Assembly: GCA_937951485.1 (NCBI GenBank)
Contig: CALEDJ010000008.1
Location: 1 to 35,911 of the forward strand
Direction of reading: 5' to 3'
Source of the DNA: an uncultured bacterium
GTDB lineage: Bacteria; Hydrogenedentota; Hydrogenedentia; Hydrogenedentales; CAILVY01
DNA: 35,911 bases
The notes under the pieces are model-generated. The model was not told the DNA's origin, ran no database searches, and saw only the letters and a list, made by a program, of their open reading frames with translations. Made by a program: the position numbers and the translations under genes. This document shows, in pieces, positions 28,290-35,911 of this stretch (its first letter is position 1; each line of letters begins with the position of its first letter).

Positions 28290-28378
28290 CGTTCGTTCCG
28301 CTTCGGATGTTGGTCGGATTGGGAAAATAGACGAAAGAACATTCAGGTTCGGTTAACAGGTGATCTTGTGTTGCTGGA

Positions 28379-28451
28379 TTCCCGCTTTCGCGGGAATGAC
28401 CGGTTGGAACAGGGCGTTCGATTCAATCTGTCTTTCCCGCGAAAGCGGGAA
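28379..28451. repeat. Inverted pair of 18-base palindromic repeats
   Basis: TTCCCGCTTTCGCGGGAA at 28379-28396 and its reverse complement TTCCCGCGAAAGCGGGAA at 28434-28451 flank 37 bases. From memory, the extended form (GGATTCCCGC...GCGGGAATGAC) is an interspersed intergenic repeat seen in many bacterial genomes. It lies between the aldolase and dehydrogenase genes and could act as an mRNA hairpin. Confidence 0.75.
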
Positions 28452-28552
28452 TACGGAACGATTCCTGCCGCCGACAGATCGGCTGCAAGAATCGGCAACG
28501 AACCCACGATTTTCATCCCCAACCGAACACGAACGAACAAGAGGAGTATATT

Positions 28553-32400: not shown

Positions 32401-32452
32401 TGTGGCATGGGCGTCCCGCCCATGAAACGCGGGAAAGATCCCCGTGCCACGA
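32401..32452. repeat. Interspersed hairpin repeat
   Basis: CATGGGCG (32406-32413) and CGCCCATG (32417-32424) form a perfect 8-bp stem. The outer TGTGGCA and TGCCACG ends can also pair. From memory, GTGGCACGGG...GGGCGGGACGCCC elements are scattered between genes in planctomycete/hydrogenedentes-like genomes. It may contribute to termination after the ceramidase-like gene. Confidence 0.5.
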
Positions 32453-32554
32453 TCAAACACAGCGGTTTTTGTTAAAGGCTCTAAAGATTGCGCCGATTCC
32501 TGCCGAAATAAAAAGTACAGTAAAAGGGAGACCCGACGCAGAAAGGAGGCTGTC

Positions 32555-32752
32555 ATGGCTGGGATCGCAGCAATGGTCAGCGGCGTCGGGGCCGGTGTGA
32601 GCCAGGTTCGTTTTCAGGATCACGACCGGTCGGTCCAACTGAAGGAACAGGACAGGCCGACCGGTGATGTGGGGTCCGCGGCACTGCAGTTGATTCAAAG
32701 TGCGCTGAGAGTTCCTGGAACGACAGGACGCGACCTCGACGTGCTGGCTTAG
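32555..32752 (+). CDS. Small YjfB-like (putative motility) protein
   Basis: 65 residues starting MAGIAAMVSGVGAGVSQVRF and ending RVPGTTGRDLDVLA. The layout (short hydrophobic helix with IAAM, a polar middle, then ALQLIQSAL and a terminal G-x-x-[IL]-D-[IV]) resembles the YjfB family of about 60-residue putative motility proteins. GAAAGGAGG lies just before this ATG, a near-perfect ribosome-binding site. The same frame is open from 32444, but that longer form has no such site. It stands alone between the ceramidase-like gene and the CRISPR locus. The gene is likely real; the family link is by eye. Confidence 0.6.
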   Translation: MAGIAAMVSGVGAGVSQVRFQDHDRSVQLKEQDRPTGDVGSAALQLIQSALRVPGTTGRDLDVLA

Positions 32753-32773: not shown

Positions 32774-32808
32774 CGGGAGGGCGGATGCACGGAGGCGACG
32801 CCCTCCCG
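32774..32808. other. GC-rich inverted repeat after the small YjfB-like gene
   Basis: CGGGAGGGCG (32774-32783) and CGCCCTCCCG (32799-32808) form a 10-bp stem 21 bases past the stop codon. The T-run lies before the stem on the plus strand, so it is not a textbook intrinsic terminator, although it could stabilise or end the small gene's mRNA. Confidence 0.45.
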
Positions 32809-32845
32809 ACTGTTTCCCGCCACATCGCTTTCCCCAACCATCAAT

Positions 32846-32879
32846 AAAAAATGCCTCCAAAACCTTGCGGCCAGGAGGC
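32846..32879 (-). terminator. Intrinsic terminator of the tracrRNA candidate
   Basis: On the minus strand GCCTCC-N15-GGAGGC (32879-32853) folds with an inner CC-GCAA-GG mini-hairpin and is followed by ATTTTTT. Confidence 0.75.
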
Positions 32880-32961
32880 GATAGGGTCGGCGCATGCGCC
32901 GGAGCCCACCGTGATGATTCCTTACTATGATCAGTAGGGAATCACCGCTCAGATATACTGT
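32846..32961 (-). ncRNA. Candidate tracrRNA of the type II-C system
   Basis: An RNA of about 116 bases is predicted on the minus strand, divergent from cas9. It begins about 7 bases after a consensus promoter and ends in an intrinsic terminator. In order it has about 17 unpaired 5' bases, a long imperfect hairpin (GTGATTCC...TACT, loop GATCAT, AGTA...GGAATCATCAC; 32944-32911), a short GGCGCATGCGCC hairpin (32900-32889) in a nexus-like position, and the terminator stem. This matches the layout of Neisseria-type II-C tracrRNAs, whose anti-repeat is itself partly palindromic. If so, the CRISPR repeat should resemble the plus strand from about 32911 to 32947. No array is in the window, so base-pairing with a real repeat cannot be checked. 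The placement, promoter and terminator make an RNA gene here very likely. Confidence 0.75.
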
Positions 32962-32964
32962 GGG

Positions 32965-32993
32965 TTGACTATAGCACGTTTTTGCGTTATTGT
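32965..32993 (+). promoter_or_regulatory. cas9 promoter
   Basis: TTGACT (32965-32970), 17 bases, TATTGT (32988-32993) form a strong promoter reading toward cas9, with a start near 33000 and a leader of about 117 bases. It is interlocked with the tracrRNA promoter on the other strand. Confidence 0.65.
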
Positions 32994-32996
32994 CAA
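32968..32996 (-). promoter_or_regulatory. tracrRNA promoter
   Basis: On the minus strand TTGACA (32996-32991), 17 bases, TATAGT (32973-32968): a perfect -35 and a -10 with one mismatch to consensus. Its -10 overlaps the -35 of the cas9 promoter and its -35 overlaps the cas9 -10. Confidence 0.75.
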
Positions 32997-33116
32997 GTCC
33001 CTGGTGCATTTATGCGCACAGTGGGCAAGACAAGAAAGAAAAGGGGATGCTCTGCGGTTTCTGTTTGTGGGGAAATTCTTGAATACGCCTTGGCATAAAC
33101 GGGTGGAGGACGTCTC

Positions 33117-35911
33117 ATGAACACGGAAAATCGTAAGACGGTGTTGGGACTTGATTTGGGGGCCAATTCGCTCGGCTGGGCGCTGCTTGCCTTCGACGGC
33201 GACACCCCTTGCGGATTGATCGATATGGGTGTGCGCGTCTTTGAAGCGGGCACGGAAGGCCAGATTGAATCCGGCCGGGACGAATCACGCGGCGTGGAGC
33301 GGCGTCAGGCGCGGCAGCGCCGCCGCCAGACAAAGCGCCAATCCATGCGCATGGTCAGGCTGGCCAAAACCCTGCAGCGATACGGCCTCCTGCCGCCGGG
33401 CGATGTGCAAAGCGGGAAAACACGACACAACCTCTTCGAGGAATTGGACAAGGACTTGCGCCGCGAATATGCGGAACGAGGCATCCCCGTGGATGCCTCA
33501 ACCGGACTCCGCGAATTTCCCTATTTCCTGCGCGCCCGCGCCCTCGACGAAGCCCTCCCGCCCCATGCCCTCGGCCGCGCACTCTACCACCTCGCCCAGC
33601 GCCGCGGCTTCCTCAGCAACCGCAAGTCCGACAAAGACGAAAAGGAGTTGGGCGTCGTCAAGTCGGGAATCAGCGAACTGCAGAAGGCAATCATCGCATC
33701 AGGTGCGCGCACCCTCGGCGAATACTTCTTCCGCCTCGATCCCGTGTTGGAAAAGCGCATCCGAAGCCGCTGGACCGCGCGCGGCATGTATCGGCACGAA
33801 TTCGATCAGATCATGGAGGCGCAAGAGCGGCTGGGCGGTTTCAAGTTGTCCGACGGCGCGCGTAAGGCCATCGCCGACTGCATCTTTTATCAGCGGCCGT
33901 TGAAAAGTCAAAAGGGATTGGTGGGGGAATGTGATCTTGAACCCAAGAAAAAGCGCGCACCCAGGGCGCTGCTCTGCGCGCAACGGTTCCGGCTCTTGCA
34001 GAAGGTGAATGACATGTGCGTGATTTTCCCGGATGGACGCAGCCGACCACTGAACGATGACGAAAAACAACGGCTTGCGGCGCATCTGGACACGGTTCGG
34101 GAAACCACCTTCGGCAAGTTGCGCAAGGAACTGGGCCTTCCCAGAAACTCTGAATTCAACCTGGAACAGGGCGGCGAGAATAAACTGAAGGGAAACACCA
34201 CCGCAGCGCCTTTGCGCGAAGTCTTTGGGGAACGCTGGGATGCCCTGGGCCGAGACAAGCAGAACGCCATCGTCGGCGAACTGATGGGGATTGAAAAGGA
34301 AGAGGCGTTGTTGCGGCGCGGAAAGTTCTGGGGCCTCAGTGACGCGGAGGCGGAAAAGTTTGCCAAAATAAAACTGGAAGAGGGATATATTTCCCTCTCG
34401 CGCGAAGCAATCAATAAACTGCTGCCGCTCATGGAGCAGGGCATATCCTTCAAGACCGCGGAGAAGCAGGTCTACGGAGCCGCGCAGTGGTCCAAATTGC
34501 TTTGCGACAAATTGCCGCCCGTGGCGGATGCCGTGCCGGCCGTCCGAAACCCTGTCGTCATGCGTTGCCTCACCGAACTGCGCAAGGTCGTCAACGCCAT
34601 CATCCGCAAATACGGCAAACCGGATGAGATTCACCTGGAACTTGCCCGGGACCTCAAAAAATCGCGGGATCAGCGCAAACGCATTTGGGAAGACAACCGC
34701 AAACGCGAACAGCAACGCGATGAGGCGCGCAAACGCATCGAGCGGGAACTTGGCCTCACAAAGATATCTCGTGATGACATCGAGAAGGTGCTGCTGGCGG
34801 AAGAATGCAACTGGACCTGCCCCTACACCGGAAAGTCCATCAGCATGAGCAGCCTCCTGGGGGAGCATCCGCAATTCGACATCGAGCATATCATCCCCTT
34901 CAGCCGCTGCCTCGATGATTCTTTCATGAACAAAACGCTTTGTCATCACGAGGAAAACCGGACGCGGAAGGGAAACAGGACACCGTGGGAAGCCTATGGC
35001 AACACACCGGAATGGGAAGCCATTATTGAAAGAGTGAAACGATTCAACAGACCCAGGATCAGTATGCCCGCAAAAGGCCGCCGCGGCGCACAGCGAGACG
35101 AAGACAAAGCCAACCCCAAACTCATGAGGTTCCAGATTCGCGACATCAAGGAGTTTGAGGAATTCACGACGCAGAAACTGAACGATACGCGCTACGCCTC
35201 AAAACTCGCCGCCAGATATCTCGCATGGCTTTACGGCGATGCGGCCAGAAGCCGCATTCAGACCAGCGCCGGCCAGATCACCGCGCTCCTGCGCGACGCA
35301 TGGCATCTGAACAAGATTCTCGGCGACCCGGAACGCAACCAGAAAAGCCGCGAAGACCACCGCCACCATGCGATTGACGCCCTCGTCATCGCCATGACAA
35401 ACCGCGCCGTGGTCAAGCGTCTGAGCGACAGCGCCAGACAGCAGCAGATGGAACGCGGCCGCGTCCGGGGCTTCATCCGACGCATGGAAATCCCCTGGCA
35501 GAACTTCCTCCAGGATGTGACCGACGCCGTGGAACGCATTGTCGTGTCCCATCGCGTCAGCCACAGGCTCAATGGTTGCCTGCATGAAGACACCATCTAC
35601 AGTCCGCCCCGCCAGGATGAAAACGGCAAAACCTGTCATGTGGTGCGAAAGCCGCTTAATGAAAAATTCAAGGCCGCTGATGTTGACACCATCGTGGACC
35701 CCGCCGTGCGTGACGCCGTCCGAAGGCATCTCGAAGCCCACGGCGGCAAAAGCGAGGACGCATTCGCCGACCCCGCCAATCATCCCAGGCTGCCGTCAAA
35801 AAGTGGCGCGCCGACGCCCATCCATCGCGTGCGCGTCAGACGCATCATAAGCCCCTTCATCGTGGGAAAAGATGAAAACATCCGATATGTGACCACAAGC
35901 ACCAACCATCA
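33117..35911 (+). CDS. cas9: CRISPR-associated endonuclease Cas9, type II-C (3' end outside window)
   Basis: Open from ATG 33117 (GGTGGAGG 8-15 bases upstream) to the window edge, 931 codons without stop. It is an RNA-guided DNA nuclease. RuvC-I: VLGLDLGANSLGWAL with Asp13. The Arg-rich bridge helix follows (GVERRQARQRRRQTKRQS), then REC (ALYHLAQRRGFLSNRK is typical of II-C). RuvC-II: EIHLELARDLKKS with Glu508. HNH: CPYTGKSISM then FDIEHIIPFSRCLDDSF with His591, close to the Neisseria form. RuvC-III: DHRHHAIDALVIAM with His751 and Asp754. The beginning of the wedge/PAM-interacting region is present. II-C Cas9s are about 1000-1100 residues, so some 100-150 residues are missing only because the window ends. 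All nuclease residues are intact. cas1, cas2 and the array would lie beyond the right edge. Confidence 0.96.
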   Translation, partial: MNTENRKTVLGLDLGANSLGWALLAFDGDTPCGLIDMGVRVFEAGTEGQIESGRDESRGVERRQARQRRRQTKRQSMRMVRLAKTLQRYGLLPPGDVQSGKTRHNLFEELDKDLRREYAERGIPVDASTGLREFPYFLRARALDEALPPHALGRALYHLAQRRGFLSNRKSDKDEKELGVVKSGISELQKAIIASGARTLGEYFFRLDPVLEKRIRSRWTARGMYRHEFDQIMEAQERLGGFKLSDGARKAIADCIFYQRPLKSQKGLVGECDLEPKKKRAPRALLCAQRFRLLQKVNDMCVIFPDGRSRPLNDDEKQRLAAHLDTVRETTFGKLRKELGLPRNSEFNLEQGGENKLKGNTTAAPLREVFGERWDALGRDKQNAIVGELMGIEKEEALLRRGKFWGLSDAEAEKFAKIKLEEGYISLSREAINKLLPLMEQGISFKTAEKQVYGAAQWSKLLCDKLPPVADAVPAVRNPVVMRCLTELRKVVNAIIRKYGKPDEIHLELARDLKKSRDQRKRIWEDNRKREQQRDEARKRIERELGLTKISRDDIEKVLLAEECNWTCPYTGKSISMSSLLGEHPQFDIEHIIPFSRCLDDSFMNKTLCHHEENRTRKGNRTPWEAYGNTPEWEAIIERVKRFNRPRISMPAKGRRGAQRDEDKANPKLMRFQIRDIKEFEEFTTQKLNDTRYASKLAARYLAWLYGDAARSRIQTSAGQITALLRDAWHLNKILGDPERNQKSREDHRHHAIDALVIAMTNRAVVKRLSDSARQQQMERGRVRGFIRRMEIPWQNFLQDVTDAVERIVVSHRVSHRLNGCLHEDTIYSPPRQDENGKTCHVVRKPLNEKFKAADVDTIVDPAVRDAVRRHLEAHGGKSEDAFADPANHPRLPSKSGAPTPIHRVRVRRIISPFIVGKDENIRYVTTSTNH

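Follow-up and report, generated by a model that had tools for sequence, protein, structure and literature searches.

The tracrRNA is usually regarded as ready to pair once it has been made. For the type II-A system of Streptococcus pyogenes, two reports describe a long form, tracr-L, which has a separate upstream promoter and its own 5' region and matches 11 nt beside a PAM at the cas promoter (PMC11417352, PMC8616872). Engineered toehold-gated guide RNAs are synthetic designs whose functional part is masked by a hairpin until a matching RNA enters at an open toehold. In Campylobacter jejuni, according to Jiao et al., the anti-repeat base-pairs with cellular RNAs, for the most part close to its 3' end, and such RNAs can serve as guides for Cas9 (PMC8224270). 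Here, we describe a predicted tracrRNA whose anti-repeat (AR) may be locked, in the free RNA, against the segment that follows it. As far as our searches show, this self-fold, conserved in relatives, has so far gone undescribed: we found no report of a natural lock between AR and nexus in the open-access literature searched, from which subscription papers are mostly missing.

The window, by which we mean the whole stretch of DNA analysed, is a contig of 35,911 bases (G000:C8) that ends, with the window, inside cas9. The RNA encoded beside this gene is the tracrRNA of a II-C type Cas9 system and is ordinary by its parts (Table 1). The predicted Cas9, its gene cut at the contig end, contains the Pfam domains RuvC_III, HNH_4 and Cas9_a and scores 700.7 bits against TIGR01865 (cut-off 100). 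As in other type II-C tracrRNA genes, there is a strong promoter divergent from cas9, a full-length anti-repeat followed by a segment starting with AAGG, more hairpins, and a terminator. In one relative (G047), the array adjoins cas2, cas1, cas9 and the tracrRNA gene, in that order.

Table 1. Positions in the window of the tracrRNA gene, its predicted structural elements and the adjoining cas9 gene.
Feature	Position	Strand	Remarks
cas9, cut by contig end	33117..35909	+	divergent from tracrRNA gene
cas9 promoter-like site, TTGACT-17-TATTGT	32965..32993	+	9/12 bases, consensus match only; overlaps tracrRNA promoter
tracrRNA promoter: TTGACA (32996-32991), 17 nt, TATAGT (32973-32968)	32968..32996	-	11/12 consensus bases
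tracrRNA, predicted	32846..32961	-	start ~32961-32960, end at U-run; both deduced from promoter, last hairpin and U-run
36-nt anti-repeat (AR)	32924..32959	-	34/36 positions pair with own genome's repeat at G000:C39, G-U included, hand alignment
AR nt 1-11, proposed toehold	32949..32959	-	mean unpaired probability 0.96 in free fold
Lock helix, 5' strand (AR nt 14-22)	32938..32946	-	predicted fold, covariation
Lock upper stem, 32936-32932 with 32927-32923, loop 32931-32928	32923..32936	-	predicted fold
Lock helix, 3' strand, post-AR segment	32913..32921	-	predicted fold; native pairing exceeds swapped
Segment in nexus position, AAGGAATCATCAC	32911..32923	-	no stable predicted local hairpin, unlike deeper relatives
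Hairpin A of tracrRNA	32880..32910	-	predicted fold
Terminator: 6-bp stem with inner hairpin (32879-32853), then ATTTTTT	32846..32879	-	predicted fold

The promoter of the tracrRNA gene is placed close to the AR in the window and in its relatives. The -10 box ends 8 nt upstream of the window's AR, and a -10-like box ends 6–9 nt upstream of the AR in 13 of 13 tracr genes, the window's included, in a scan limited to ~5–11 nt from the AR. A full TTGACA stands 16–18 nt before this box in 11 of the 13 genes, and the window holds a single minus-strand promoter-like site within 32800–33200. Because the promoter is so close, the RNA should start at the 5' end of the AR, and the roughly 17 free 5' bases assigned to the RNA in a preliminary description of the window are mostly the AR's own 5' end. 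The last, terminator-like hairpin is absent from the output of a simple terminator scan, and an Rfam scan of the window returned a tRNA as its sole match. The cas9 promoter-like site on the plus strand and the tracrRNA promoter on the minus strand overlap almost wholly (32965–32996), so transcription of the two genes may interfere. A 102-aa reading frame without a Pfam match (32444–32752) adjoins the tracr terminator, and farther off in the window, an intergenic 29-nt inverted repeat (28378–28452; 90% complementary, 17 nt spacing) is possibly a mobile palindromic element.

The position of the AR was established from CRISPR repeats. Array repeats of relatives place its start at AGTATATCTGAGCGG..., within the bases previously thought free. 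Once the search register was moved by 13–15 nt, as deduced from these repeats, an array was found in the window's own genome, with three copies of the repeat seen, 66 nt apart, at the start of contig C39 (sense GCTGTGGTTGGAAGGGAATCCCCGCTCAGGTATACT). A search in the register of the preliminary description (32911–32947) matched only the window itself. AR and repeat co-fold with a mean pairing of 0.93, and because the repeat matches the AR, we infer that the C39 array belongs to the window's cas9, C8 and C39 being unjoined contigs. The anti-repeat first proposed (32944–32911) thus lay too far 3': by the genome's own repeat, the real AR occupies 32959–32924, and 32923–32911 is the segment after it, which is the nexus position in relatives. 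Obtaining the repeat and testing its complementarity, as had been suggested, was possible with this repeat from another contig, which pairs at 34 of the 36 positions. To that extent, the alternative of an ordinary II-C anti-repeat holds, but the palindromic repeat matching 32911–32947 that formed part of it was not found.

Further features of the repeats and anti-repeats deserve mention. AR nt 16 (32944 in the window) mismatches the repeat in nine of the 14 tracrRNAs compared below (as C.U, C.C, U.C or U.U), a conserved mismatch within the repeat:anti-repeat duplex. The repeats of the window's genome (L060:1-215, G000:C39) and 11 relatives end in TATACT, TATAAT or TACACT, with TTG standing 16–17 nt before this terminal box in 11 of the 12 genomes (G001 is the exception); each CRISPR repeat may carry its own promoter. 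In Neisseria II-C arrays, repeats have their own promoter each. In a sister group (G170, G223 and G226; L044, L106 and L107), the anti-repeat is seemingly just ~17 nt long.

The self-folding segment noted in the preliminary description is real. It is predicted to form 9 bp (32946–32938 with 32921–32913), a 1x1 mismatch, 5 bp and a 4-nt loop, with a lone pair at 32948–32911, which is near the claimed "about 12 bp with a bulge". The fold z-score is -2.32 for the 73-nt interval (5/200 shuffles as good) and -3.61 for 143 nt (0/200). The window's AR-to-tail pairing alone is unremarkable, being matched by 137 of 2000 shuffled tails (7%), so the case rests on relatives. The same 7% speaks for the main rival of the model we propose, namely, that the tracrRNA is an ordinary one and that its self-complementarity serves no separate function. 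On that account, the tail resembles the repeat, for example as the descendant of an old repeat copy or through Cas9 contacts that shape both, and pairs with the AR on paper. Pairing with crRNA, being much stronger, would prevail in every case. We judge such a functionless by-product to be a serious possibility, if on the whole rather unlikely.

The window and its relatives were represented by 14 tracrRNAs (G000, G047, G059, G011, G001, G035, G032, G014, G016, G019, G015, G020, L004 and L005), taken from genomes in which either the Cas9 was related or the anti-repeat matched. Twelve are from the window's order, for which 68 genomes were searched (a search at class level covered the same 68), and the others are from a Planctomycetota MAG (L004) and a Krumholzibacteriota MAG (L005). 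G011 and G020 are near-copies of G059 and G015; they are counted separately among the 14 and were left out of the permutation tests. The G035 sequence is usable from the AR onward, where its contig ends. G005 and G060 gave tracr-like hits but no cas9 and were excluded throughout, and the tracrRNAs of L006 and G170 were identified by visual inspection. Neither searches nor reading by eye found a tracrRNA in G031 and G022, no acceptable AR was found in G072, G009, G123, G160, G096 and G008, and for G074 and the second Cas9 of G020 there was no array on which a search could be based.

The self-fold recurs across this set. Folds of 80 nt show pairing between the AR middle and the tail for 13 of the 14 tracrRNAs, and folds of the AR plus 30 nt show the AR middle paired with the post-AR segment for all 14, the region involved being AR nt ~12–22. 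In minimum-energy folds, which are biased towards pairing, lock pair 16 is U-A in six tracrRNAs, C-G in four, G-C in three and unpaired in one, and both sides also change at lock pairs 12, 13, 17, 18, 21 and 22. Because of this bias, we compared native AR/tail duplexes with swapped ones. Native duplexes had a mean energy of -15.8 kcal/mol versus -11.7 for swapped duplexes (n = 12), with p = 2e-5, the floor for 50,000 permutations, for energy and for a Z corrected for tail composition alike. Restricted to AR nt 12–24, the comparison gave p = 2e-5 for the 12 sequences (leave-one-out p <= 4e-5), p = 6e-5 with each deep branch represented once (n = 8) and p = 2e-5 without G032 and G035, in which cas9 was not found (n = 10); among the six of the G000 clade, it was weak (p = 0.03). 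Control comparisons of AR nt 1–12 with the tail (p = 0.42, energy) and of the AR middle with the next 34 nt (p = 0.82) showed no such preference. Ungapped pair counts gave a weaker result (p = 0.0006–0.011), the AR-tail Z is weak individually in G047 (-0.84), G035 (-0.64) and G032 (-1.03), and RNAalifold did not recover the lock helix when given the 12 sequences as aligned by MAFFT, an alignment in which the tails look misaligned. Taken as sequence comparison, these results support a conserved, covarying self-fold beyond chance.

Two of these patterns count against a by-product without function. A relic should decay, yet AR and tail match species by species across Cas9s that are ~44–65% identical. 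In addition, AR nt 16, which its mismatch releases from the repeat, still pairs with the tail in eight of the nine tracrRNAs concerned, which would be hard to explain via repeat pairing alone.

In G032, the tracr gene, a cas2-like sequence and three repeats remain (L098; G032:C133:8000-20000), but a tblastn search of the interval between them found no Cas9 (best E 0.39). The interval is occupied instead by genes for a D12 methyltransferase, an SNF2 helicase and a NOV_C protein. It looks as if a defence module replaced cas9 and left an orphan tracrRNA.

Folding models of the 14 tracrRNAs, all predicted without Cas9, describe two states. In full-length free folds, the mean pairing probability between AR nt 12–22 and the tail is 0.66–0.89 in 13 of the 14, the exception being G019 (0.14), for which the RNA was truncated to 120 nt. 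The first 11 AR nt are open in the same folds with a probability of 0.65–0.96, save in L005 (0.45). Adding the repeat in a co-fold brings AR:tail pairing to 0.00 in all 14 tracrRNAs. A short hairpin then stands directly 3' of the AR in seven of them (G001, G014, G016, G015, G020, L004 and L005) and a longer one after the AR in G047; no nexus hairpin is predicted in the window's freed tail. The models support the two folds being mutually exclusive. Covariation backs the closed fold, and the open form follows from AR-repeat pairing; the RNA would presumably switch between them. That AR:repeat pairing fully displaces the lock in these co-folds is also in keeping with self-pairing of no consequence.

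The repeat-bound co-folds bear on a further alternative, in which the AR-tail helix would form within the mature Cas9 complex after the crRNA repeat has been trimmed and serve as a structural stand-in for the nexus. When co-folded with crRNA, the tracrRNAs of G000, G059, G011 and G035, among the closest to the window, do not form a clear nexus hairpin locally, which speaks for this alternative. Against it, the helix would enclose the 3' part of the AR that is needed for crRNA pairing, so that both together would be strained, and deeper relatives keep a local nexus hairpin. We consider a role in the mature complex improbable.

More distant tracrRNAs show the limits of the pattern. Ten more distant type II tracrRNAs were compared; G223, G226 and one partial Cas9 came from searching the phyla to which G170 and G130 belong, and G223 was retained while its near-copies G170 and G226 were left out. 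Native duplexes again paired better than swapped ones (p = 0.015 for energy, 0.020 for Z), and AR-tail self-pairing was strong (Z < -1.7) in five of the ten (G130, G147, G056, G071 and G079). Three well-known type II tracrRNAs are without the lock (Z of 0.23, -0.07 and -0.70), and a covarying helix between AR and post-AR segment in the free RNA is what distinguishes the window's tracrRNA from them. With half of the distant tracrRNAs and the three well-known ones lacking it, the lock is not universal; its absence from about half of the distant set is a further point for the functionless reading.

The preliminary description had raised the possibility that the RNA acts as a natural single guide in repression of the cas promoter. 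The self-fold would then mimic a repeat:anti-repeat duplex, Cas9 would bind the free tracrRNA, and the open 5' end would target DNA. The conservation of the self-fold in relatives is compatible with this proposal, and like tracr-L, the RNA is paired within itself and has a short open 5' end, whose ~11 nt equal the length of the tracr-L match as described (PMC8616872). The separate promoter, own 5' region and cas-promoter match of tracr-L were, in contrast, not found here. There is no 5' extension, the promoter lies directly before the AR, and the spacing of the -10-like box in all 13 tracr genes leaves no room for a separate guide. The suggested search for genome matches to the 5' segment returned four exact matches to AGTATAYCTGAG in the 4.5-Mb assembly (~94% complete), confined to the tracrRNA gene and the three CRISPR repeats seen, so a target outside the repeats was not found. 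The first 14 AR nt match the upstream 250 nt, a stretch that includes the cas9 promoter, over at most 5 nt (shuffled mean 5.7). A repeat mimic upstream of the AR was not found either: the 3' 24 nt of the AR against 150 nt upstream gave a Z of 0.06, with 149/300 shuffles as good. Furthermore, the partner strand of the AR lies 3' of it, not 5', and the fold uses up the segment that holds the nexus in relatives. The target, promoter, upstream-mimic and repeat tests led us to reject a natural single guide as the main reading, and we regard it as very improbable.

The open 5' end's only other exact matches found in the genome are the CRISPR repeats, which gives rise to a variant of this idea. The self-folded free tracrRNA could guide Cas9 to the promoters that the repeats seem to carry (last six bases TATACT, -10-like), where Cas9 would bind but leave the DNA uncut, lowering crRNA synthesis at times of surplus free tracrRNA. 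This, too, seems highly unlikely.

We favour instead, with a probability of roughly 55%, a model in which the free tracrRNA is locked, apart from a 5' toehold of ~11 nt, until invading crRNA undoes the lock and makes the nexus available to Cas9. In the free RNA, AR nt ~12–22 would be paired with the post-AR segment, hiding most of the AR and dissolving the nexus hairpin wherever one exists, while ~11 nt at the 5' end would be left open. The 3' end of the crRNA repeat would land on this open end and invade the AR by strand displacement. Opening of the lock would release the nexus, and only then would the RNA be fit for Cas9. A likely benefit would be that tracrRNA without crRNA is kept off Cas9, and another that chance pairing of cellular RNAs with the AR is avoided. 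Of these points, entry through the toehold, any influence on the loading of Cas9 and the advantage gained are our inference.

Comparison with described systems gives this lock model some context. Gating by a hairpin that gives way to an invading RNA is shared with the engineered toehold-gated guide RNAs; those are synthetic, whereas the window's would be natural and opened by crRNA. The noncanonical crRNAs of C. jejuni illustrate the hazard that a lock would reduce (PMC8224270). By analogy, a lock that leaves just the 5' end open would probably hinder cellular-RNA pairing of the C. jejuni type; the C. jejuni tracrRNA itself is without the lock, being the one with a Z of -0.07.

If the lock model is true, crRNA itself would license the tracrRNA for Cas9. 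Such licensing would be part of the explanation for how stray cellular RNAs are kept from programming Cas9, and it would provide a natural model for gated guide RNAs. Even if the lock is a by-product, guide design for this Cas9 group must treat the AR and the tail as co-evolving.
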